Source: Clostridia bacterium (lineage in GTDB: Bacteria; Bacillota_A; Clostridia; Oscillospirales; CAG-272). Taken from it: 41,974 nt of DNA. The position numbers were made by a program, and so were the translations under genes. The notes under the pieces are model-generated. The model was given only the letters and a program-made list of their open reading frames with translations. It had not been told where the DNA came from and made no database searches. The stretch spans positions 1 to 41,974 of the forward strand of contig JAGBRZ010000066.1 in assembly GCA_017632155.1 (NCBI GenBank), read 5' to 3'. Positions 828 through 33,792 of the stretch are shown one piece after another (the stretch's first letter is position 1; every line of letters begins with the position of its first letter).

Positions 828-1721
828 GTGAGCAATCCTACGGTTTTTATTTCTTATTCTCATGACAACGAACAACATAAAACTTGGGTTTTAAAACTTG
901 CAACGGATTTGCGCTCCCATGGTGTCAATGCAATCCTTGACCAATGGGACCTGCGCATTGGATCTGATTTGCGTTTTTTCATGGAAAACGGCCTTTCTGC
1001 AGCCAATCTTGTTCTTTGTATTTGTTCCGAGGAATATGTGCGCAAAGTGAACTCTGGTTTGGGTGGTTCAGGTTATGAAGGTATGATCATGACCCAATCC
1101 CTACTGCAGAATGCCAAGTCAGAGTTCGTTATTTCTGTCGTAAGAAATAATCCATCTGCCAATAAAGTTCCATTGGCGTTCGGTAGCAAACTGTACATTG
1201 ATTTTTCTGATGATGAACTATATGTCGTCCATTATCAAGAACTTCTTGAAAGAATCTATGGTGAAGATTCGAAAAAGAAACCTCCTTTGGGTAACAGTCC
1301 GTTTTCAACAGAGATGGGACAGAAAATAGAATTTAAAACGAAAATAGAGACAATTCAGTACTGTTCTCCGACGATGGATGGTACAGTCGTATTTCGTTTT
1401 GATAATAATAACGGTCGCTTTACCATCGGTTCTGGAGAATACTCATTTTGCACGCGTTGGAGTAGATCGGGAAACAATTCGATTCATGCGTATGGATCTA
1501 TTGGTTTTAAGGTGGGCGAATGTGAGTTTCCATCATTTCAAGACCTGTATACATACGATTATAGTAGCGGCAGCCGAACCATCAGTACAGGACAGATTGT
1601 CGTTTTTGAGAATGAATATAAGCACTTTGCTGCAATCAGACTCGGCGAGGTCAAGAGTGGTGGGCACGGTAATTTGTATGACGAAATGGTCTTCGACTAC
1701 CATATTTATAGCCTTGAATAG
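828..1721 (+). CDS. TIR/SEFIR-domain protein with a C-terminal beta-rich domain
   Basis: The start is GTG at 828 with GGAGG at 811-815. Residues ~1-150 form a TIR_2/SEFIR-type domain: VFISYSHDN at the N-terminus, an ILDQWDL segment, GSDLRFFMENGLSAA, then VLCICSEEYV. The remaining ~140 residues look beta-rich (FTIGSGEY, TRWSRSGNNSIHAYGS) and resemble the C-terminal sensor-like region of some bacterial TIR proteins; this resemblance is from memory. Bacterial TIR effectors often degrade NAD+ or make nucleotide signals during phage defence, but partner genes such as ThsA are absent. The gene is alone between direct repeats, is AT-rich, and has no clear promoter between the terminator at 755-792 and its start. 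A defence role is inferred; the TIR call itself is fairly secure. Confidence 0.8.
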   Translation: MSNPTVFISYSHDNEQHKTWVLKLATDLRSHGVNAILDQWDLRIGSDLRFFMENGLSAANLVLCICSEEYVRKVNSGLGGSGYEGMIMTQSLLQNAKSEFVISVVRNNPSANKVPLAFGSKLYIDFSDDELYVVHYQELLERIYGEDSKKKPPLGNSPFSTEMGQKIEFKTKIETIQYCSPTMDGTVVFRFDNNNGRFTIGSGEYSFCTRWSRSGNNSIHAYGSIGFKVGECEFPSFQDLYTYDYSSGSRTISTGQIVVFENEYKHFAAIRLGEVKSGGHGNLYDEMVFDYHIYSLE

Positions 1722-1735
1722 CATAAAAATACTGA

Positions 1736-1763
1736 TTTTGTGGCAACAGTATGGCAACAAAAA
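1736..1763 (+). repeat. Right TGGCAACA repeat block
   Basis: TTTTGTGGCAACAGTATGGC followed by AACAAAAA is a near-copy of 701-729. It lies just after the TIR gene and ~100 bases inside the right direct repeat. Confidence 0.5.
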
Positions 1764-1859
1764 ATCAGATAGCCTCTGCTGTCTGAATAATGGAAATAAT
1801 CCTAAGACCTTGAGCTAAATCCCATAAGCAAATCTGTTTAAGATTTCTTTTTCGGGAGC

Positions 1860-1872
1860 GAGTGGGAATAAT
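1860..1872 (+). repeat. Right direct repeat (attR-like)
   Basis: An exact second copy of GAGTGGGAATAAT from the guaA 3' end, here with no reading frame around it. An orphan copy of a gene's 3' terminus is the usual scar left by a site-specific integrase. Confidence 0.7.
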
Positions 1873-1887
1873 CAAATAAGGTTTTTA

Positions 1888-1922
1888 AGTGGCTTGGAAG
1901 TCTTATCCCAAGCCACTTTTGC
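1888..1922 (+). terminator. Terminator beyond the right repeat
   Basis: AAGTGGCTTGG pairs with CCAAGCCACTT, followed by TTT. It lies 16 bases after the right repeat, the distance at which a guaA terminator would sit without the insertion. Confidence 0.75.
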
Positions 1923-1975
1923 AAAATGACGATTTTACACGGCAATAATTTTTATTTATAAATGAGGTGAGAAAT

Positions 1976-2374
1976 ATGCACATATGGATCATTATACTTT
2001 TTGCAACGGCGGGCGTTGTGTTTGGACTTGATTATTTATTCAGAAGAAAAAAGTGGAAGGACAATTCAAAGGCAGAGAAAATCAGTTTGCTTGTAAATAT
2101 GTTCTCTGTTGCCCCTTATATTTATTTGTCAGCACTGGGCATGCTGTGGGGAATCGTGCCGATGACTCCCGAGACCTCGTTTGGTAAGGCAATATATGAT
2201 GCGACACTTTCCATGGGCGGAATCTATTTTATCATTGCCATTGCGGCGGTAATTTTGTCTTTTGTTTTCCGCAAAATAAGAAAAGCAAAAGCAAGCATTT
2301 GGACAAATATTATTGCTTTGTTATACATAGCGGTAGTATTGGTAGCTAATGTTCTTGCGGCAAAGCTATTCTAA
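1976..2374 (+). CDS. Small membrane protein of unknown function
   Basis: A 132-residue protein that I do not recognise. The ATG at 1976 is preferred over a GTG at 1967 because the latter lies inside the Shine-Dalgarno sequence GAGGTGA (1964-1970). It is mostly hydrophobic, with about four likely membrane segments: IWIIILFATAGVVFGL at the N-terminus, one near residue 45 (VAPYIYLSALGML), one near 80 (IYFIIAIAAVILSFVF) and one at the C-terminus. Basic patches (RRKKWK, RKIRKAK) separate the helices and probably face the cytoplasm. It is AT-rich and lies just outside the putative island, with its own terminator. Confidence 0.7.
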   Translation: MHIWIIILFATAGVVFGLDYLFRRKKWKDNSKAEKISLLVNMFSVAPYIYLSALGMLWGIVPMTPETSFGKAIYDATLSMGGIYFIIAIAAVILSFVFRKIRKAKASIWTNIIALLYIAVVLVANVLAAKLF

Positions 2375-2420
2375 TCGTTTTGGCAACGCCAAATTCACAA
2401 CTATAAGTTCATAACTTCTC

Positions 2421-2456
2421 AAATCCCGAAAGTCCTCAACGGCTTCCGGGATTTAT
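2421..2456 (+). terminator. Terminator after the small membrane protein
   Basis: AATCCCGAAAG pairs with CTTCCGGGATT with one mismatch, followed by a T-rich tail. Confidence 0.75.
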
Positions 2457-2491
2457 TTGTTCAAAAATATACAAAATACAGTAATTTTATA

Positions 2492-2520
2492 TTGACAAAT
2501 TGTTAAAATAGTGGTACAAT
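2492..2520 (+). promoter_or_regulatory. Sigma-A promoter of the first binding-protein gene
   Basis: TTGACA at 2492-2497, a 17-bp spacer and TACAAT at 2515-2520, about 30 bases before the start codon. Confidence 0.8.
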
Positions 2521-2551
2521 TACATTATCATTTAAATTGGAGGAATGACCA

Positions 2552-4075
2552 ATGAAATTCGCTTACAGATTTCTCGCATTGGCACTAGTTGCCATTACTC
2601 TCCTCGGCTCCTTCGCGGCTTGCGCCGATACAAAGGAACCCGTTACCGATGATACAACCGCAGCCAACGCTTCAACCGAGGCTCCCGCAGCCACTACCGA
2701 GGCAGAAGCTACCACCGAAAGCCCCTACGATGAAAACGGCTATCTCAAGAGTTCTCTTCCCGACGAGCTTGACTTCGGCGGCGCAGAGGTTACCGTTCTT
2801 TGGTGGAACGACGTTGAGCAGCCCGAGTTCTTCGTTGAAAACACCAACGGCGAGCTTATCAATGACGCTATCTATCTGCGTAACGCAAACGTAGAAGCAA
2901 AGATGGGCGTTAAGCTTAACTGGATCGACATCAAGGGTCAGTACAACAGCGACGGCGAAAACTATGCAAACTACGTTGGCAATGCATATGCATCCGGCAG
3001 CGATCTCTTCGACCTTATGTCCGCACACTCCAGAACCATGGCTCTCACCGCTATGTACGGCTACTGTGCAGAACTGACAAAGCTCGATCACCTTGATTTC
3101 GAAATGCCTTGGTGGCCCGAGGTTATGCTTGATACCGCCACCATCAACAACAAGCTCTACTTTGTAACCGGCGACGTATCCACCAACTCCATCCACCAGA
3201 TGTACGTTATGTTCTACAACAAGGATATGCTCAAGAATTACGCCGAGCTTATCGAGCCCTCTCAGCACGTTGACGACGGCACTTGGACCATGGAAACCAT
3301 GTTGGCTATGACCAGCGGCCTCTACAATGATATGAACAATAACCAGAAAGCGGACAAGGATGACTCCTTCGGCTTCACTTCTCTTAACTGGCACTTTGAC
3401 GCTATCTACTACGGATGCGGCATGACAATGCTTGAAAAGGATGCCGACCCCGCAAAGCTTCTCAAGGTTGCTGATGACTGGACCTCCGAAAAGGCTATCA
3501 CCCTCAGCGATACCGTTGGCGAATGGATAAAGAAGGGCGATGCTTACCTGGACTCCAACAATTACGCTAACATTTTCGTAAACGGCAGATCTCTCCTTGT
3601 TATGGCACGTCACCATGACATCGCCTCTAAGATTTCCGAGGCAGGCTTCAAGTACGGTATCGTTCCCATGCCTAAGTATGACAAGGAACAGGAAAAGCAC
3701 ATCACCTGTGTTGGTAACCCCGTTTCTCTCTACTCCATTTACACTCTCTCGAAGGATGCAAACCGCGCGGCTGCAGTTCTTGAGTGCTGGGCAAGCGAAG
3801 CTTACCGCACCACCACTCCCGCAGTATTTGAGACTACCTTCAAGCTCAGACTTTCCGAAACCTCGACCGAATCCCGTATGTATGACCTCATCCGTTCGGG
3901 CGTTACCTTCGACCTTTGCCGTTTCTTCAACAGACAGCTCAGCAGCATGGGTAGCGAATGGTACAAGTGCGCAACCACCGCAGGTAACTGGGCATCCAAG
4001 AGCGAAGCTCTTATGAAGTCCGTTCCCGCAAAGCTTCAGGATATCGCAGACAGCTTCAACAAAATCGGTAATTGA
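2552..4075 (+). CDS. Extracellular solute-binding lipoprotein (sugar ABC type), copy 1
   Basis: A 507-residue lipoprotein with a signal peptide ending in a lipobox-like GSFAAC (Cys near residue 24), then a Thr/Ala/Glu-rich linker and a binding-protein fold of the kind used by carbohydrate ABC importers. The body is rich in aromatics (VTVLWWND, FEMPWWPEVM), as in sugar-binding clefts. The start is ATG 2552 with GGAGG at 2539-2543. It is a close paralogue of the next gene: SSLPDELDFGG, LMSAHSRT, ALTAMYGYCA and LNWHFDAIYYG are shared in order. No permease or ATPase is adjacent, so it must use a transporter encoded elsewhere or act alone. The ligand is unknown; the rhamnosidase downstream suggests rhamnose-containing glycans (inferred). 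Confidence 0.85.
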   Translation: MKFAYRFLALALVAITLLGSFAACADTKEPVTDDTTAANASTEAPAATTEAEATTESPYDENGYLKSSLPDELDFGGAEVTVLWWNDVEQPEFFVENTNGELINDAIYLRNANVEAKMGVKLNWIDIKGQYNSDGENYANYVGNAYASGSDLFDLMSAHSRTMALTAMYGYCAELTKLDHLDFEMPWWPEVMLDTATINNKLYFVTGDVSTNSIHQMYVMFYNKDMLKNYAELIEPSQHVDDGTWTMETMLAMTSGLYNDMNNNQKADKDDSFGFTSLNWHFDAIYYGCGMTMLEKDADPAKLLKVADDWTSEKAITLSDTVGEWIKKGDAYLDSNNYANIFVNGRSLLVMARHHDIASKISEAGFKYGIVPMPKYDKEQEKHITCVGNPVSLYSIYTLSKDANRAAAVLECWASEAYRTTTPAVFETTFKLRLSETSTESRMYDLIRSGVTFDLCRFFNRQLSSMGSEWYKCATTAGNWASKSEALMKSVPAKLQDIADSFNKIGN

Positions 4076-4094
4076 TAATCAATACCTAACTTTT

Positions 4095-4129
4095 TCCCCG
4101 AAAGCTTAACCGCTTTCGGGGACTTTTTT
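4095..4129 (+). terminator. Terminator after binding protein copy 1
   Basis: TCCCCGAAAGC pairs perfectly with GCTTTCGGGGA around a six-base loop, followed by CTTTTTT. Confidence 0.9.
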
Positions 4130-4151
4130 GTAAATTGTACTAAAATCAATA

Positions 4152-4180
4152 TTGACAAAATCATAAATTTATGCTATTAT
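4152..4180 (+). promoter_or_regulatory. Sigma-A promoter of the second binding-protein gene
   Basis: TTGACA at 4152-4157, a 17-bp spacer and TATTAT at 4175-4180, with TG just upstream of the -10 element. The two paralogues are therefore separately transcribed. Confidence 0.8.
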
Positions 4181-4213
4181 TATAATATCAATAAATAATT
4201 GGAGGAAAAACCA

Positions 4214-5728
4214 ATGAAAAAGACCGCAAGATACATATCCCTGATACTTGCATCGCTTATGATTCTCGCACTGCTTGTCGGATGCGCTGAAACAACCGAT
4301 CCAAATGCAGAAACAACTCTCGCTCCCGCGGAAACCGCAGCTCCCGACGTTGCAGATGCTGAAACCACCGAAAGCATCTATGATGAAAACGGCTACGAAA
4401 AGAGCTCTCTTCCCGATGAGCTCGACTTCGGCGGCGAGACCATCACCGTTCTTTGGTGGACTGACGTTGAAAACCCCGAGTTCTTCGTTGAAGAAGCAAC
4501 CGGTGATATGATCACCGACGCAATATTCCAGCGTAATGCTAACGTTGAATCCCAGATGGGCGTAACGTTTGAATGGGTAGGCATCAAGGGTCAGTATAAC
4601 GGCGGCGTAGGTCAGGATTACGCCAACCACGTGGGTAACCTCTACGCTTCCGGCGACTCTACCTACGACCTTATGTCGGCACACTCCCGTACCATCGCAC
4701 TCACCGCTATGTACGGCTACTGCGCAGACCTTATGCAGGCGGAACACCTTGATTTTGAAAAGCCCTGGTGGCCGGCAGTTATGCTTGATACCGCTACTAT
4801 CGGCGACGCGCTCTACTTCGTAACAGGTGATGTTGCCACAAACTCGATTCACCAGATGTATGCTATCTTCTACAACAAGGATATCCTCGCTCAGTATCCC
4901 GGGCTTGTTGAACCCTCCACCTACGTTAAGGAAGGCAACTGGACAATGGAAACCATCCAGATCCTGACCAAGGAACTTTATCAGGATCTTGACGCCAGCA
5001 ACTCTAAGAACGAAAACGACTTCTACGGCTTCACATCTCTTAACTGGCACTTTGACGCAATTTACTACGGTGCAGGTCTCAAGCAGGCTGAAAAAGACCC
5101 CGATACTCTTATGAAGATCTCCCCTGACTACACCTCCGAAAAGGCAGCAAACCTTGTAGATATGGTCGGAAGCTGGATCAAGCAGGGTGATGTTTTCATC
5201 GACTCCTCCAACTACCGCACGCCCTTCCTCAACGGAAATGCTCTTATGAGCATGGCGCGTCACCACGACATTGCAAACCGTCTTTCTGAAGTAAGCTTCA
5301 GCTACGGTATCGTTCCGATACCCAAGTTCAACCAGGATCAGGAAAGACACTACACCGTTGTAGGTAACCCTTGCTCCTTCTACGCTATCTACACCCTCTC
5401 GAAGGATATAAACCGCGCTGCAGCAGTACTTGAGTGCTGGGCAAGCGAGGCTTACCGTCTGACCACTCCCGCAATCTTTGAAATGACTATGAAGCTCAGA
5501 TATTCCGAGACCTCGGTTGAGTCGGAAATGTACGACATCATCCGCGAAAGTATCGTATTCGACTTCGGACGTCTGTTCAACTCCTCTCTCAACGCAATGA
5601 GCGACCAGTGGGATAACGCCGCTATCGCAGGCACTCCCTGGGCATCTCTCGGCAAACGTCTGGAGAAACAGCTCACCAAACTGTTCAAGGACATAACCGA
5701 CAGCTTCGCAGCTATAAAGAATAACTAA
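4214..5728 (+). CDS. Extracellular solute-binding lipoprotein (sugar ABC type), copy 2
   Basis: A 504-residue lipoprotein; ATG 4214 is chosen because GGAGG (4201-4205) precedes it at normal spacing. The signal peptide ends in a good lipobox (LLVGC, Cys ~22). The linker is again Thr/Glu/Ala-rich, and the body aligns with copy 1 almost end to end, with differences spread throughout, consistent with tandem duplication and divergence. The GH78 gene follows at 59 bases with only a terminator between, so this gene probably supplies its transcription. No transporter membrane subunits are nearby. Confidence 0.85.
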   Translation: MKKTARYISLILASLMILALLVGCAETTDPNAETTLAPAETAAPDVADAETTESIYDENGYEKSSLPDELDFGGETITVLWWTDVENPEFFVEEATGDMITDAIFQRNANVESQMGVTFEWVGIKGQYNGGVGQDYANHVGNLYASGDSTYDLMSAHSRTIALTAMYGYCADLMQAEHLDFEKPWWPAVMLDTATIGDALYFVTGDVATNSIHQMYAIFYNKDILAQYPGLVEPSTYVKEGNWTMETIQILTKELYQDLDASNSKNENDFYGFTSLNWHFDAIYYGAGLKQAEKDPDTLMKISPDYTSEKAANLVDMVGSWIKQGDVFIDSSNYRTPFLNGNALMSMARHHDIANRLSEVSFSYGIVPIPKFNQDQERHYTVVGNPCSFYAIYTLSKDINRAAAVLECWASEAYRLTTPAIFEMTMKLRYSETSVESEMYDIIRESIVFDFGRLFNSSLNAMSDQWDNAAIAGTPWASLGKRLEKQLTKLFKDITDSFAAIKNN

Positions 5729-5738
5729 TATCTACATT

Positions 5739-5775
5739 GCCCGAAAGCCTTAAAAATCAGGCTTTCGGGCTTTTT
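5739..5775 (+). terminator. Terminator between binding protein copy 2 and the rhamnosidase
   Basis: GCCCGAAAGCC pairs perfectly with GGCTTTCGGGC, followed by five T. The Shine-Dalgarno sequence of the next gene (AGGAG, 5776-5780) begins immediately after the T tract, leaving no space for a separate promoter. Confidence 0.85.
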
Positions 5776-5786
5776 AGGAGAACAAA

Positions 5787-7976
5787 ATGACAAACAAGCA
5801 TTGGATAACCAAAAGGATCATGCCCCGTTTGCCCTTCGGAGAAAACGGAGAGGGATGGGGGAAAATTGTTGAAGAGAATCTGAAAACGATCAGCCCCGAA
5901 AGAGCAAGCGTTATTTTCCGTAAAGAATACACATTTACAAGGACGCCCGCCGAGGCGAAAGTCAAAATTTGCGGACTCGGTTTCTACCATTTATATATAG
6001 ACGGCAAAAAAGTCGGCAATTATTCGCTCTCGCCTCTCGAAACGGCTTACCGAAAGCTTGCACTTTATGACGAATTTGACGTCACATCCCTTCTTTCAGC
6101 TGGCACCCATACCATCGCCGTCGAGCTCGGAAACGCACGATTTTCAACTCCGAAAAAATATTGGGGATGGCGTGCGGCTTATTACGGTGATCCTTGCCTC
6201 GCCTTTGAAATGTCTATTAAATTCGCGGACGGAACAAGCGCGGAATATGCCTGTGACTCAAGTTGGAAATGCTCACACGGAGCAACAACCCACAACTGTT
6301 ACTACGACGGCGAACGCTTTGATGCCCGACTTGAGCAAAGCGGATGGAAGGAGAATGGATTCGATGACAGCGAGTGGCAGAATGCACTTTGCATCGAAAG
6401 TCCCACTCGCCGTCTTGAAAAAAATGAATACTTTCACATCACAAAAAGAGCAGAGCTTGACCCGATCAGCGTCAAAAAGCGCGTAAGTGGCAAGACCATC
6501 CACGTTTTCGGTGAAAATATTTCGGGATGGGTTCGCATCAAGGTGCGCGGTGAGCGCGGTGAAAAGGTTCGCATCCGCTATGCAGAATCGATGCGTGACG
6601 GGTATCTTGATCCCGTTTCAAACGCAGATGCCGAAAACGTTGACGAATATATCCTATCGGGTGAAGGCATCGAGGTCTACGAGCCTTCCTTCAGTTTCTG
6701 CGGTTTTTCGGTGGTCGAGGTAATGATCGAAAACTGTATGGCAGAGCTGCTCGAGGTCAAAGCTTTCCACGTATATGCCGATATCGAAAACGACGGACAC
6801 TTTGAATGCGATAACGAGGACATAAACCGTCTGCACGATATTATCCTCCGCACACAGAAATCTGCCCTTCAAAGCTTCCCGATGGACTCGCCGCAACGCT
6901 CCGAGCGTCTGGGTTGGATGGGCGACGCGCACATCACCGATCTTGTGTGCCTCTATAACTTCGATATGAAAGCATATTACCGCAAATTTCTCGAAGATAT
7001 TGCTCTCTGTGCTCACTCCGAAACCGGCGGGATGCCGCATATCGCTCCCTGGCACGATCAATTCCACTCGATCGACTGGTCCTCGGGCTTCTCGATCATT
7101 CTTTGGGATCATTTCCTCTTCTACCGCGACAAGAGCGCGCTTGAAAGATACGTGCCCGCTCTGATGAGATATATCGAATTTCTCAAAACGCAGGGACCGA
7201 TCCTTCCAAAAACCCGTTACGGCGATTGGATGTCGCGTGACGAGGGTTGGACGCGCGGAGACCCCGAATCCTGCTCGACACTTTACTATCTCTATAATCT
7301 CATAATCGCCAAGAACGTGCTCGATGAGCTCGAAAGCGACTCGACGGAGATTGCAAAGCTGATCGAAAATCAGAAAAAGATCATTCTTGATACCTTCTAC
7401 GATGCGGAAAATATCGTATTCGACGGCAACTCGCAGTTCAGCCTTTCATTTGCGCTCAAGCTCGGTGTGATTCCCGAAAATGACATTCCCACAGCAGTTG
7501 ATAAACTCGTTGCAAACGTCGAGGCTCACGGCTACCATCTGACAACCGGCATTCTCGGAACGAAATATATAATGGAAGCTCTGCGCGATGGTGGGCGGTG
7601 CGACGTTGCGATGAAGCTTCTTTTGCAAGACACCTACCCATCGTGGCTCGATATGACGCACGGAAAAACGACTCTGCCCGAGCAATGGGACGGCGGAAAA
7701 TCACAGAACCACTGTATGTTCGGCAGCGTTGACGCAATTCTTTACAGCATGCTCGCGGGCATTAAAATCGACAAGGAAATTGAAATTGCTCCTTATTTTA
7801 CCGAAGAGGCAAATCACGTTTGCGCGAATACCGCGCTCGCGGGCGGAAAGATTTCTGTCGAATGGACGCGCGAGAACAAAGAGATCACGCTCCGCATCAA
7901 TATCGAAGGCGAAGCAGAAGTGAAATATAATAATACCGTTTTGCGCGCAGGGGAACATATTTTCAAAAATTTATAA
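5787..7976 (+). CDS. GH78 family alpha-L-rhamnosidase-like glycosidase
   Basis: A 729-residue protein with the GH78 layout: an N-terminal beta-sandwich region (~40-200, with GLGFYHLYIDGKKVG), a second beta region (~225-325), an (alpha/alpha)6 catalytic barrel (~335-660) and a short C-terminal beta domain. The barrel has the family motif DSPQRSERLGWMGDA starting at Asp367, and near its end TTLPEQWDGG with Glu632 where GH78 enzymes carry a catalytic Glu, followed by HCMFGSVDAILYSMLAG. No signal peptide is visible, so it probably acts in the cytoplasm on imported rhamnosides. The start is ATG 5787 with AGGAG six bases before. Expression seems to depend on read-through from the binding-protein gene. 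The exact substrate is unknown. Confidence 0.85.
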   Translation: MTNKHWITKRIMPRLPFGENGEGWGKIVEENLKTISPERASVIFRKEYTFTRTPAEAKVKICGLGFYHLYIDGKKVGNYSLSPLETAYRKLALYDEFDVTSLLSAGTHTIAVELGNARFSTPKKYWGWRAAYYGDPCLAFEMSIKFADGTSAEYACDSSWKCSHGATTHNCYYDGERFDARLEQSGWKENGFDDSEWQNALCIESPTRRLEKNEYFHITKRAELDPISVKKRVSGKTIHVFGENISGWVRIKVRGERGEKVRIRYAESMRDGYLDPVSNADAENVDEYILSGEGIEVYEPSFSFCGFSVVEVMIENCMAELLEVKAFHVYADIENDGHFECDNEDINRLHDIILRTQKSALQSFPMDSPQRSERLGWMGDAHITDLVCLYNFDMKAYYRKFLEDIALCAHSETGGMPHIAPWHDQFHSIDWSSGFSIILWDHFLFYRDKSALERYVPALMRYIEFLKTQGPILPKTRYGDWMSRDEGWTRGDPESCSTLYYLYNLIIAKNVLDELESDSTEIAKLIENQKKIILDTFYDAENIVFDGNSQFSLSFALKLGVIPENDIPTAVDKLVANVEAHGYHLTTGILGTKYIMEALRDGGRCDVAMKLLLQDTYPSWLDMTHGKTTLPEQWDGGKSQNHCMFGSVDAILYSMLAGIKIDKEIEIAPYFTEEANHVCANTALAGGKISVEWTRENKEITLRINIEGEAEVKYNNTVLRAGEHIFKNL

Positions 7977-19543: not shown

Positions 19544-19570
19544 TAATTTCAATTTTTTTGAAATTACCTA

Positions 19571-19599
19571 TTGACAAGTCTTCTCTTTTGTGCTATAAT
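19571..19599 (+). promoter_or_regulatory. Promoter of the methyltransferase leader
   Basis: TTGACA (19571-19576), 17 bp, TATAAT (19594-19599). The 16 bases TTTGTGCTATAATTAG around the -10 also occur at the MarR promoter near 21758. Confidence 0.85.
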
Positions 19600-19613
19600 T
19601 AGCGAAAATTTTT

Positions 19614-19634
19614 ATGAAAGGTATACGGCAATGA
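19614..19634 (+). CDS. Tiny upstream reading frame 1 (6 codons)
   Basis: ATG AAA GGT ATA CGG CAA TGA encodes MKGIRQ. It begins ~8 bases after the likely transcription start and has no ribosome site, so it would act as a leaderless-like frame if used at all. It ends in an ATGA overlap with the next frame. The interpretation is tentative. Confidence 0.3.
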   Translation: MKGIRQ

Positions 19635-19732
19635 CAACTATTAAGTTTGTGCTTAATAATAATGTCCCTATGCACGGAGAATACTCCCTTTGGTATTCGT
19701 CGGGCTTGTATTGTCGTACCCAAATTTCATAA
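19631..19732 (+). CDS. Leader peptide (33 codons), candidate attenuator sensor
   Basis: Encodes MTTIKFVLNNNVPMHGEYSL and then WYSSGLYCRTQIS. An AAAGG sequence ~10 bases upstream could serve as ribosome site. It lies wholly between a consensus promoter and a terminator and contains the proposed antiterminator strand (codons ~25-29). A ribosome stalled before that stretch would leave it free to unwind the terminator, whereas fast translation would cover it. I do not recognise the peptide from a known resistance leader. Confidence 0.5.
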   Translation: MTTIKFVLNNNVPMHGEYSLWYSSGLYCRTQIS

Positions 19733-19763
19733 TAATCGTATTATAGGATTATATTTTGGATAT

Positions 19764-19810
19764 AGACGGTGCAAGTCGAAGTATTGATCTCGATTTGCAC
19801 CGTCTTTTTT
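19764..19810 (+). terminator. Strong terminator upstream of the methyltransferase
   Basis: A 16-bp stem (AGACGGTGCAAGTCGA with TCGATTTGCACCGTCT, one G-T) with a ten-base loop and six T. It sits before, not after, a gene with no second promoter, which argues for regulated read-through. Confidence 0.9.
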
Positions 19811-19846
19811 GTTTATTAATTATTTAACATAAAGGAGAAAAACATA

Positions 19847-20632
19847 ATGGAAAGACTCGAAGCGCTCACGGCTTATTACTCGAAGGGCAAGGAAGACGGA
19901 CGTCTGCTCTCGCGCCACGGAAGCGTGGAATTTATCACGACGGTCAATTATATCGAAAAATATCTTCGCCCCGGCATGAAGATACTCGAGATCGGCGCGG
20001 GGACGGGGCGGTATTCGCACTATTTCGCGCAGAGCGGCTACGAGGTCGATGCCGTCGAGCTGATGGAATGTAATATCGAAGTCTTCAAGGCGCACACAAC
20101 GCCCACAGAAAAGATCACGGTCACACAGGGCGACGCGCTTGATTTAAAGATCGAGGACGAGCAATACGACATCACCCTTCTTCTCGGACCGATGTACCAT
20201 CTTTACACGGTAGAGGATCAGAAGAAAGCACTTTCGGAGGCGATCCGAGTGACGAAAAAGGGCGGGATCATTTTTGCCGCTTACTGCAACAGTGATCTTA
20301 CTATGTATCAAGCCTGCATCGGAAAAAGAATACTTAAACCCGCACGTGCCGAACATAAGATTGATGAAAAAACCTTCAAACTCTTCTCTGAGCCCGTGGA
20401 TGTTTTTCAACTCCATCGCAAAGAGGATATCGACGCGCTGATGTCCGGATTCAACGTCACCCGCCTACACTACGTCGGCACGGATATGCTCGTCCACTTC
20501 ATGCGACGGGAGTTTTCCGAGCTTGACGACGAAGATTTTGAGTTTTATATGAGATACCACCTTTGCATCTGCGAACGCCCCGATATGATCGGCGCGACAA
20601 ATCATATGCTTGATATTTTCAGGAAGGAATAG
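19847..20632 (+). CDS. Class I SAM-dependent methyltransferase
   Basis: A 261-residue Rossmann-fold methyltransferase. SAM-binding motif I reads ILEIGAGTGRYSHYF (~45-59), followed by VDAVELM, GDALDLKI and the motif IV/post-I segment DITLLLGPMYHLYT. The N-terminus (YYSKGKEDGRLLSRHGSVEF) and C-terminus are conserved in a clostridial subfamily whose substrate I do not know. ATG 19847 has AAAGGAG. Two acetyltransferases follow with almost no gaps. Control by a leader peptide and attenuator would suggest a response to translation inhibitors, but no rRNA-methyltransferase (Erm) signature is visible. Confidence 0.85.
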   Translation: MERLEALTAYYSKGKEDGRLLSRHGSVEFITTVNYIEKYLRPGMKILEIGAGTGRYSHYFAQSGYEVDAVELMECNIEVFKAHTTPTEKITVTQGDALDLKIEDEQYDITLLLGPMYHLYTVEDQKKALSEAIRVTKKGGIIFAAYCNSDLTMYQACIGKRILKPARAEHKIDEKTFKLFSEPVDVFQLHRKEDIDALMSGFNVTRLHYVGTDMLVHFMRREFSELDDEDFEFYMRYHLCICERPDMIGATNHMLDIFRKE

Positions 20633-20634
20633 AT

Positions 20635-21129
20635 ATGGAAATTACAATAAGAGAAACACATCCCTCGGAAGCCGAGGAATTGATAGAAATACAAAAGGCG
20701 GCATTTTTGCCCCTTTACGAAAAATATCACGACCCCGGCAACCCGTGCCTGCGCGGTGTCGAGGATATACTGATCAGACTAAATGAGAACTACCGCCATT
20801 TCACCATCCTTGCTAACGGAAAGATCGTCGGCGCGATATTCTACCGCGTTCACGGCAAGTGGTTCCCCGATACCTTCCTCGAGGACGGCGAATACTACCT
20901 CGGCAGACTCTACATCCACCCCGATCATCAAGGCAAAGGCATCGCACCGAAAGCCATCAAGCTTGCGGAAAAAGAATTCCCCGATGCCAAAAGATTCTAC
21001 GTAGATTTTCCCACAGATATGAACAAAAACCGCCGTTGCTACGAAAAAGCGGGATATAGTGATATGAATTTATCCCTGCAAGTTGAGGAGAATCTTACGC
21101 TTACGTTTTACAAAAAGGAGATTGAATAA
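20635..21129 (+). CDS. GNAT-family N-acetyltransferase
   Basis: A 164-residue GNAT protein with the acetyl-CoA motif A: LGRLYIHPDHQGKGIAPKAI (~100-120; R/Q-x-x-G-x-G/A variant QGKGIA), then FYVDFPTDMNKNRRCYEKAGY (motif B). It starts two bases after the methyltransferase stop, so it belongs to the same operon. The acceptor substrate is unknown. Grouping of a methyltransferase and acetyltransferases is compatible with drug or metabolite modification, without proof. Confidence 0.85.
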   Translation: MEITIRETHPSEAEELIEIQKAAFLPLYEKYHDPGNPCLRGVEDILIRLNENYRHFTILANGKIVGAIFYRVHGKWFPDTFLEDGEYYLGRLYIHPDHQGKGIAPKAIKLAEKEFPDAKRFYVDFPTDMNKNRRCYEKAGYSDMNLSLQVEENLTLTFYKKEIE

Positions 21130-21698
21130 TGATATTCCAACCCAAAGAAATAACACTCAAAAATGGCAGGAGTGCCATACTGAAAACACCCGAGATCAGC
21201 GATGCGGCGGGAATGCTTGAATACATAAAACAAGCCTGCGGAGAGACTGAATTTCTTCTTCGTACCCCCGAGGAATGGGAAAGCGTGACGGTCGAAAAGG
21301 AAGAAAAATGGGTCAAAAGCCAACGTGAATCGAAAAACACACTCGCCATAACCTGCTTCATTGACAGCAAGATTGCGGGTAACTGCGAGATCAGCTTTCG
21401 AAGCGGCGCAAAAACCTCGCATCGCGCTACGGTCGCCATAGCGATTCTCAAAGAATATTGGAGCATCGGCATCGGTTCGGCATTCTTCCGCGAGATGATC
21501 TCTGCGGCAGAGGAACACGACGGCACGGAGATCGTCGAGCTTGATTTCATCGAAGGCAACGCCCGTGCACGCGCGCTATATGAAAAATTCGGATTCCGCA
21601 TTACGGGGATGATACCGAACGCTATCAAACAGAAGGACGGTAGCTACCGAAATGAATATCAAATGCAATTAATTTTATCGAAAAATCCGAATAATTGA
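21129..21698 (+). CDS. GNAT-family N-acetyltransferase
   Basis: A 189-residue GNAT protein overlapping the previous stop by one base. Its N-terminus (LKNGRSAILKTPEISDAAG) and the region VAIAILKEYWSIGIGSAFFREM match the acetyl-CoA motif A with a GIG core, followed by VELDFIEGNARARALYEKFG and a final RNEYQMQL. This subgroup resembles RimJ/RimL-like or spermidine-type enzymes. It is the last gene of the operon; no clear terminator follows before the MarR promoter. Confidence 0.85.
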   Translation: MIFQPKEITLKNGRSAILKTPEISDAAGMLEYIKQACGETEFLLRTPEEWESVTVEKEEKWVKSQRESKNTLAITCFIDSKIAGNCEISFRSGAKTSHRATVAIAILKEYWSIGIGSAFFREMISAAEEHDGTEIVELDFIEGNARARALYEKFGFRITGMIPNAIKQKDGSYRNEYQMQLILSKNPNN

Positions 21699-32271: not shown

Positions 32272-33792
32272 TTACATTCTCTTTTCGAAGTCTTGAATAA
32301 GCTTTTTAATTCTGCTGGTATAAGCCCTCTGCTGAACCTTATAGGTAGAAGCAAAGGTATTGTTTCCATTCTTAACGATGGAACGGGTCGAGGTTGCGAT
32401 CGAATCAAGCTCGCTTCCGTAAACCATACCGGTATCAAATTTGATACTGTCAAGGATAAGGTCGAAGATCATACCCGACTCAACGTCCTTGAGATATCTT
32501 GTCTTCATAATAACCTCGCAATATACGGGAAGAATATCCATATAAGAGCGATAGTTCCATTCCTCAAATACAGTACCTACAGCGGAAAGCTGCTTACTTG
32601 TTGACATAACGGACATAATGCTGTATGCATCCTGTGCTGTGGTGTAATATTCCTGCTGATCAGCATCATACTTGGGAATAGGAAGCAGACCGTATGTATC
32701 ATCCATACTTCTGAGGGACTGGTTGGTTGCGGAGCTTGCATAGATGGTGTAGAGCCAGAAGAGCGATTCACCGTTTGTGAACTTGTTGCAAAGCTCGGAG
32801 TGATTCGAATGGAGGAATGCACCGTTGTTGTTATTGAAGAGGGTGATCTGAAGGTCAATGGCATTCGAAACCTTTTCGGGATTCCAAATTATATCAAGAC
32901 CGCCATCATTATTCTTTGCAAGAATGTCAATGCCGAATGCGGTGAGGAATCCGTCATAAGCCTCAGATCCCAGAATCGAAATGATACCAATGTTATCGGG
33001 AAGGTCAATGGTACCCGACTGGTTTGTGTCAACCCAAGTATCCTTGGTGTATTCAAGAAGCTTGTCAATGGTCCAAGAACCGTCAAGAACAGTGTCATAA
33101 AGGTTGCCGATCTGAAGAGTATTGGCAAGAGTTGCGTTGTAGTAAATTGCAAGTGAACGGTCTACAACCGAGAGGTTGAGGTCACCGATTATGAAATAAA
33201 GCTGATCCTTGATGGTTGCGGCTTCAACGTATGTCTGGTTCCACCAGGGGTGTTCAAGATTGATGGTATCGATAGTATGAAGGTTTGCATAACAATTACG
33301 AAGAGCTGCGCCTGTGGAATAGTACGCATAATTCATAACAAGGTCAAGGCCGGAGGGACCGCCGCCCTCGAACTCTGCAATGATCGTGCGCTGAGATTCC
33401 TCCTTAGAGGCACTCTTGATAAATTCAAATTTAAAATTCAGATCCTCTTCGAGCTTGAGATTTCTCTTGTAGATCTCATCGTTGAGCATATCGCCGGTTT
33501 CACTTTCGGAGAAAAGCTCCCGGTTCCAAGTATCAGAATCACGCATAAGCACGGTGATCACGGTGCCGTCTGCAAGCTTGGTTCCTTCTGCGGTGGGGGA
33601 TTCAACGTAAGGACGTCCCCATTCATCGGTGGGGGGCTCGGTTTCAACGGGGGCGGTTTCACCTTCGGTTTCCACGGGAGCTGCAATTTCGTCCCCCTTG
33701 GTGGTTTCATCCGACCCTGAGGTCTCTGCACACGCAGCAAAGCAAAGTGTCAGTGTAACGAGTGCGAGTAATAGTGCAATAATTCTCTTCAT
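32272..33792 (-). CDS. Extracellular solute-binding lipoprotein, distant paralogue
   Basis: 506 residues with a lipoprotein signal ending in CFAAC (Cys ~21) and an acidic Thr/Glu/Pro-rich linker (~25-55). The body shares the scheme of the two proteins at 2552-5728 but with only scattered identity (VITVLMRDSD, ELFSESETGDMLNDEIYKRN, LEHPWWNQTYVEAATIKDQL, YGLLPIPKYDADQQEYYT). It belongs to the sugar-type binding-protein superfamily. There is again no permease nearby, so the genome seems to have many orphan members of this family. The gene has its own consensus promoter at 33837-33865. Confidence 0.82.
   Translation of the reverse strand: MKRIIALLLALVTLTLCFAACAETSGSDETTKGDEIAAPVETEGETAPVETEPPTDEWGRPYVESPTAEGTKLADGTVITVLMRDSDTWNRELFSESETGDMLNDEIYKRNLKLEEDLNFKFEFIKSASKEESQRTIIAEFEGGGPSGLDLVMNYAYYSTGAALRNCYANLHTIDTINLEHPWWNQTYVEAATIKDQLYFIIGDLNLSVVDRSLAIYYNATLANTLQIGNLYDTVLDGSWTIDKLLEYTKDTWVDTNQSGTIDLPDNIGIISILGSEAYDGFLTAFGIDILAKNNDGGLDIIWNPEKVSNAIDLQITLFNNNNGAFLHSNHSELCNKFTNGESLFWLYTIYASSATNQSLRSMDDTYGLLPIPKYDADQQEYYTTAQDAYSIMSVMSTSKQLSAVGTVFEEWNYRSYMDILPVYCEVIMKTRYLKDVESGMIFDLILDSIKFDTGMVYGSELDSIATSTRSIVKNGNNTFASTYKVQQRAYTSRIKKLIQDFEKRM

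Follow-up and report, generated by a model that had tools for sequence, protein, structure and literature searches.

A conserved leader with three alternating helices and a tryptophan codon, probably a ribosome-controlled attenuator of a clostridial methyltransferase-acetyltransferase operon

Described attenuators and the place of the new leader

Attenuators of the trp and his type combine a leader open reading frame (ORF) with three alternating helices, formed by the segment pairs 1:2, 2:3 and 3:4. In the trp leader the stop codon lies near segment 2, and a stalled ribosome covers segment 1. The leader described here, found in a 41,974-nt stretch of clostridial DNA (the window), resembles these systems in having a leader ORF with its stop near the second segment, and three helices, A:B, B:C and C:D, that correspond to 1:2, 2:3 and 3:4. 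It is distinguished from them by a single Trp codon in place of a run, by the position of segment A, about 60 nt 5' of the proposed pause site and overlapping the leader start codon, and by the genes behind this leader type, which are not those of amino-acid biosynthesis. Given that neither several adjacent sensed codons nor genes for the corresponding amino acid are found, we do not file the leader in the trp family. To our knowledge, it also resembles no leader of an antibiotic-inducible attenuator.

A leader peptide or attenuation ahead of a Gram-positive resistance-type gene, in which ribosome stalling is the signal, is described for the antibiotic-inducible mef/msr(D) (PMC4335068, PMC10314930), vmlR (PMC9226507) and yxjB (PMC6851288); going by these descriptions rather than by sequence, the present leader is set apart by the use of one chassis for many unlike enzymes. 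The ToiL uORF of E. coli topAI-yjhQ, as presented in PMC12121999, likewise reads translation stress, but acts through translation repression and Rho, whereas the window leader would use an intrinsic terminator and an antiterminator. Microcin C immunity, as outlined in PMC9239234, employs MccE, MccF and MccG, and the same kinds of enzymes (RimJ/L-like GNAT, S66 and S51) are encoded behind sister leaders, although the enzymes of the window itself are a methyltransferase (MTase) and two putative GNATs. The window gave no match to Rfam 15 at gathering scores, and for seven loci searched at E <= 0.1 the sole match was a T-box elsewhere in locus L051 (11548-11747, minus strand), which scores 90.8 bits, just below the Rfam gathering score of 93. 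No description of the leader was recognised in searches of the open-licence PMC literature as judged from titles and abstract openings, and neither methyltransferase nor acetyltransferase appears in the main text of a survey of premature terminators (PMC2965389). The window leader appears to work like a leader-peptide attenuator, but as a new form outside the trp family. With respect to the original prediction for this region, the present analysis adds helix A:B, which was absent from it, the Trp codon and a multi-gene regulon, and lengthens the antiterminator.

The leader frame and its competing helices

All features of the leader region lie on the forward strand. The consensus promoter predicted ahead of the leader is indeed present at 19571-19599, with TTGACA (19571-19576) and TATAAT (19594-19599) separated by 17 nt and accompanied by a TG element, and scores 12/12 against the consensus. 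Promoters scoring at least 10/12 precede 28 of 29 aligned leaders, as against 11 of 290 control stretches. The RNA would start near 19606. It encodes a leader ORF of 33 codons and a stop (19631-19732; peptide MTTIKFVLNNNVPMHGEYSLWYSSGLYCRTQIS), which is preceded by the Shine-Dalgarno sequence GAAAGG (19616-19621) and whose phase, stop position and Trp are kept in relatives. Two overlapping tiny frames had been noted here, and only this one stands: the other, MKGIRQ* at 19614-19634, overlaps the start of the leader ORF, has no Shine-Dalgarno sequence and is probably incidental, since in a rough test of its conservation only 5 of 29 leaders have an ATG within the first 8 nt of the aligned segment. 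The predicted 16-bp terminator likewise lies where expected before the first gene (19764-19810), with a stem of 19764-19779 and 19790-19805 (the 3' arm being segment D), a loop of 19780-19789 and a T run to 19810. Beyond all three helices lies the Shine-Dalgarno sequence of the MTase gene (19831-19837), and the operon then encodes a class I SAM-dependent MTase of 261 residues, termed MTase-1 (19847-20632), a GNAT acetyltransferase of 164 residues (20635-21129) and a second GNAT of 189 residues (21129-21698). Elsewhere in the window, three long ORFs (2552-4075, 4199-5728 and 32272-33792) look by eye like related lipoproteins, and only 4199-5728 has a Pfam hint, namely SBP_bac_8 just below the cut-off.

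Segment B, the 5' strand of the antiterminator (19700-19724), aligns with segment C (19755-19779) in 23 of 24 pairs, and the part of C at 19764-19779 doubles as the 5' arm of the terminator. The 13-pair antiterminator proposed earlier (19703-19715 with 19765-19777, four pairs being G-U) is exact, but forms only the core of this longer helix, because pairing extends beyond the core, to TTTGGATAT ahead of the terminator. Segment A, in the start region of the leader (19624-19637), overlaps the leader start codon and pairs with 19706-19718 in 13 of 13 positions, thereby using the same strand as the antiterminator. The RNA from 19606 to 19820 has a folding energy of -65.9 kcal/mol (z -6.5; matched by 0 of 200 shuffles), and its minimum-energy fold contains A:B and the terminator. 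In the 29 aligned leaders, the exchange of partners between loci weakens the mean duplex energy from -18.7 to -14.6 kcal/mol for A:B and from -20.7 to -17.2 kcal/mol for B:C, each leader's own duplexes being stronger than swapped ones (permutation P <= 5e-5 for each helix). Single-locus duplexes beat all 200 shuffles of one partner in only 10 of 29 leaders for B:C and 9 of 29 for A:B, and the strength of the duplex evidence appears accordingly to lie in the comparison between loci, and less in single loci.

Covariation was assessed in two alignments that share only the window. The first, A2, is a MAFFT alignment of 29 leaders (28 loci and the window), from which two of 31 were omitted, namely L034, lacking a leader start, and L041, with an aberrant leader. 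In A2, 86.8% of cells are paired for A:B (22-51% when one strand is slid, maximum 50.5%; 14 double-change cells), 77.2% for B:C (33-40%, maximum 40.2%; 43 double-change cells) and 86.5% for C:D (32-47%, maximum 47.0%; 60 double-change cells). For each helix, none of 500 shuffles reached the observed values of paired cells, double-change cells or covariation; for A:B and B:C, the other two of the five measures do not stand out, the number of pairs with a double change being reached by 122 and 46 of 500 shuffles, respectively, and that of further pair types by 145 and 196. The second alignment, A3, comprises 61 leaders outside the building set of the covariance model R1, plus the window, none being identical to an A2 row over the first 120 nt; one late leader (L184) was left out of its input, and another (L134) was given but fell below threshold. 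R1 was built from leaders of MTase-1 genes only, and its structure holds A:B and C:D but not B:C. In A3, pairing of the B:C core holds in 91.6% of cells, as against at most 43% when slid, with 33 double-change cells, and none of 500 shuffles equalled its paired cells, double-change cells or covariation score; the pairs with a double change were equalled by 73 of 500 shuffles and the further types by 6, and 35 of 61 cells are unpaired at the core's last position. A:B and C:D are paired in 90.4% of A3 cells, the alignment having been fitted to these helices. This covariation, among leaders that are related rather than independent sequences, argues strongly that B keeps pairing with both A and C, and C with both B and D. 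The intrinsic terminator between promoter and first gene is thus recognised both in the sequence and by covariation, and the antiterminator that excludes it is conserved by covariation, as in the attenuator class. The alignment of relatives proposed as a test of the original prediction therefore finds both the leader frame and the antiterminator pairing conserved, with compensatory changes.

The reading frame was compared in a larger collection of 97 leaders, 95 of which have a plausible ORF, 94 a distinct one and 89 also a clear B motif; the losses are L034 and L176 (no ORF), one repeated peptide, and L062, L067, L096, L173 and L178 (poor B motif). Seven leaders added later stand outside these 89. 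The distance from ATG to B falls in phases 2, 0 and 1 in 43, 42 and 4 of the 89 leaders, and the leader stop follows the start of B by 19-43 nt in all 89. Of the 85 leaders in the two common phases, 71 have Gly-Leu codons at B, followed typically by x-Cys-Arg-Thr in one phase and by x-Leu-Ser-Tyr in the other. A Trp codon is found 5' of B in 50 of 51 MTase-1 leaders (the exception being L107), in 7 of 10 leaders of a second type, MTase-2, and in 4 of the 28 others, which include L160, whose contig ends before any gene is seen; for MTase-1 leaders against all others, Fisher P is 6e-13, albeit for related sequences. All 16 structurally divergent MTase-1 leaders carry Trp, and the codon is conserved before MTase-1 across four unlike leader types. 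There is one such codon in 43 of the 51 MTase-1 leaders, as in the window, two in 7 and none in 1. Counting, in leaders with two, the Trp nearest to four codons before Gly-Leu, it stands exactly four codons before that position in 24 of 26 MTase-1 leaders in one phase and 19 of 24 in the other, and the spacing is therefore kept in codons. Apart from the start codon, no other position examined up to Gly-Leu exceeds about 1.5 bits. In 41 of 50 leaders the Trp codon nearest B begins 11-12 nt before the B motif; in the window it is codon 21 (19691-19693), 11 nt 5' of the motif GGGCTTG at 19702. By this comparison of Shine-Dalgarno sequence, phase, stop and Trp, the leader ORF looks to be coding and, if so, would be translated across the antiterminator strand.

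An RNA pairing was considered as the cause of the Trp codon, as in the window type TTGG could pair with CCAA after B, but it fails as an explanation because in the other phase most leaders carry CCCTT or a similar sequence at this place, as judged by eye. Gln was considered as a second sensor codon in the same place before MTase-2 (3 of 9 distinct leaders, later 3 of 3 by reading of the peptides), and is not claimed since the cases are too few and too closely related. In a single case, L184 (1501-1719, minus strand), the Trp codon of related leaders is replaced by TTG, and no gene is visible behind the leader within 330 codons in any of the three downstream frames; this leader looks like an orphaned, decaying copy.

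Distribution of the leader and the genes behind it

An alignment of 18 MTases was used to search a genome collection, and the best 80 of 220 confirmed relatives were kept as loci. A leader of the window type lies 5' of the MTase in 29 of these 80, and a leader ORF, terminator and Trp codon of different sequence in 16; an aberrant form is seen in L041, and in L031 a window-type leader lies some 370 nt upstream of the MTase. Some leader of this design is present in 47 of the 80 loci and none was seen in the other 33, from which it follows that the MTase does not need the leader. A cultured relative, Negativibacillus massiliensis (L026), is among the carriers of the leader. In overlapping samples of the order to which the genome of L001 belongs, 35 of 197 genomes gave R1 matches at E <= 1e-3 and 51 of 394 at E <= 1e-5; three families, searched at E <= 1e-7, gave matches in 9 of 21, 7 of 200 and 5 of 148 genomes. 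Class-wide, 15 of 391 genomes matched at E <= 1e-3, four with matches above 60 bits and the other 11 at 29-37 bits. These genome counts are lower bounds, because samples of more than 40 genomes were searched with stricter filters. Matches scoring less than 42 bits do not enter the 97 leaders, as many cover only terminator-length stretches. All the evidence is drawn from genomes, mostly metagenome bins; against plasmids and phages, the leader DNA gave only short matches, covering at most 17% of the query.

Several loci show peculiarities of arrangement. Six leaderless MTase-1 genes (L036, L037, L040, L044, L054 and L058) follow a related small gene whose product starts with MPPKxK; the upstream genes of L036 and L054 were considered as TetR regulators, a reading that is not claimed since neither of the two, when scanned, matched a Pfam family. 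Between terminator and MTase, L005 has extra sequence, and L001 (about 5743-6000) has inverted copies of the GC-rich repeat GTAGGGGAGGGCGTCCTCGACCTCCC. In L016 the set of leader, MTase-1 and GNAT is present twice, in facing orientation, within about 3.5 kb (1665-5131). MTase-2 lies directly 5' of MTase-1 in L008 (653-2870), where each has its own leader, and in L033 (4692-6798), where the leader is found at MTase-2 only.

A downstream gene was found for 93 of the 97 leaders, and one member of each cluster was scanned, MTase-1 being represented by that of the window. These genes encode 54 MTase-1, 9 MTase-2, 3 MTase-3, 6 GNAT-MTase fusions, 5 PNP_UDP-like (nucleoside-phosphorylase-like) proteins, 11 GNATs in seven clusters that include the RimJ/L type, 2 P-loop-like proteins, and one each of S66, S51 and ANT(6), proportions that are biased because R1 was built from MTase-1 leaders. 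The P-loop-like proteins were named by eye from a GPHAVGKMT motif, and gave no match to Pfam (both scanned) or NCBIfam (one scanned). The S66 protein matches MccF-like PDB chains at 4e-96, and its leader, the one S66 leader found, has Trp. The two GNAT types of the window recur as first genes behind a leader (L175, 54% identical; L172, 53%), and the first gene of L186 is a GNAT 35% like the window's first one. The GNAT-MTase fusions are single proteins, all behind a leader (L098, L111, L112, L113, L131 and L132; L112 scanned, the rest assigned by similarity). The suggestion that the operon is of a resistance type gains support from the GNATs, ANT(6), and MccF-like and S51 peptidases behind the same leader, a support of sequence likeness and not of phenotype; the ANT(6) and MccF-like genes stand behind sister leaders, and the window's own first gene is a generic MTase. 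The structure model of MTase-1 (mean pLDDT 71.5) has a generic class I fold, its 50 best PDB matches listed, led by TM1389, being 13-23% identical; with matches so generic, the fold does not tell the substrate.

Proposed mechanism and the nature of the pause

Given the above observations, it is probable that the leader is a ribosome-controlled transcription attenuator of the MTase-GNAT-GNAT operon. Comparison between loci firmly supports the three mutually exclusive helices, the coding frame, the place of Trp and the kinds of genes behind the leader, and the earlier proposal of leader-peptide attenuator logic is supported by a frame and helices that are conserved with compensatory changes. In the off state, a ribosome would run through the leader to the stop just past B and leave, upon which B would re-pair with A; with B so engaged, C would be free to pair with D, and transcription would end at 19810. 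Having reached the stop, the ribosome would mask the 3' part of B, the 5' part being within reach of A. As A is the start region of the leader, A:B would form also when the leader is not translated, so that the default would be off. In the on state, we infer a pause near the Trp codon. The front edge of a ribosome lies about 12-13 nt past the first base of the A-site codon; with Trp 11-12 nt before B, a waiting ribosome would thus have its edge about at the start of B and leave B just free. The RNA between A and B would be occupied, and B would pair with newly made C, blocking the terminator and allowing the operon to be transcribed and, presumably, its products to detoxify the inducer. A ribosome waiting at Trp would leave A uncovered, unlike the stalled ribosome of the trp leader on segment 1, a point against the model; a following ribosome could sit on A, a role that is conjecture.

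Several causes of the pause are compatible with this attenuator. One that we take seriously, if tentatively, is a drug-dependent nascent-chain arrest as in the erm or msr leaders, with Trp acting as a residue and not as a hungry codon: the controlled genes resemble drug-modifying enzymes, including an ANT(6), and the distance from Trp to Gly-Leu is kept in codons, not nucleotides, across two phases. Arrest peptides usually need several residues, yet beyond Trp the positions 5' of B are conserved only weakly, at about 1.5 bits at most. Were any pause before B sufficient for induction, the leader would be a general sensor of slow translation and Trp merely a slow codon. ToiL offers a precedent in E. 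coli, being reported to respond to five or more classes of antibiotics, for which stalling at different sites is proposed (PMC12121999), and leaders before other genes have no fixed Trp (4/28); the near fixation of Trp before MTase-1 in unlike leaders (50/51 and 16/16) speaks against such a sensor, which we regard as doubtful. We also consider it rather unlikely, though possible, that the trigger is a shortage of charged tRNA-Trp, caused by a poison of Trp-tRNA synthetase of the aminoacyl-nucleotide type that the operon inactivates. That Trp is conserved ahead of MTase-1 across four unlike kinds of leader is consistent with such a poison, as is the presence behind sister leaders of a nucleoside-phosphorylase-like gene type and of MccF-like S66, S51 and RimJ/L-type GNAT genes, kinds that, in the account of PMC9239234, inactivate processed microcin C. 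The known microcin C compounds, however, hit AspRS and not TrpRS (PMC9239234), and MccF is described as effectively cleaving aspartyl and glutamyl adenylates only (PMC3817062), yet the S66 leader has Trp; ANT(6) does not fit, and the fold matches of MTase-1 are generic.

Readings that dispense with a poison or with the ribosome appear very improbable. An ordinary nutritional attenuator for Trp starvation would account for a Trp codon in a leader ORF ahead of a terminator, but no cluster for Trp biosynthesis, Trp transport or a tRNA synthetase was recognised among the 93 downstream genes, judged from one representative per cluster. Long helices alone could be switched by a ligand, and the leader might then be a riboswitch or protein-bound attenuator with a chance ORF, or even a plain terminator. 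Against these stand the lack of a matching Rfam family and the conservation of ORF phase, stop and Trp; in addition, the stretch from A to Trp varies in length and sequence, no conserved aptamer being seen in A2, and B:C, which a plain terminator would not need, covaries. We accord this group, too, very little credence.

For the preferred ribosome-controlled attenuator, the microcin C parallel suggests a function of the operon. Processed microcin C is reported to be inactivated by the GNAT MccE2, the S66 peptidase MccF and the S51 peptidase MccG (PMC9239234), and N-methylated Leu- and Gly-sulfamoyladenosines are reported to be inactive on the synthetases tested (PMC3817062). Given this inactivity, an N-methyltransferase could detoxify such compounds as acetylation does, a line of argument that is suggestive. 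An extended version, which we advance as speculation and think improbable in its entirety, is a codon-addressed detoxification regulon, in which one chassis precedes many enzymes and the codon about four before Gly-Leu names the poisoned step. In the window this would be Trp, the block would lie in the charging of tRNA-Trp, and MTase-1 would methylate the alpha-amine of a tryptophanyl-nucleotide-like antibiotic; if true, its methylation would be a resistance chemistry parallel to the acetylation by MccE. The leader signature in any case gathers detoxification-like genes (three MTase types, GNAT-MTase fusions, and phosphorylase-like and P-loop-like proteins) into a candidate translation-stress regulon. 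Many of the clostridial genomes with this candidate regulon are labelled as animal-gut MAGs, a habitat in which the regulon would predict translation-directed poisons.
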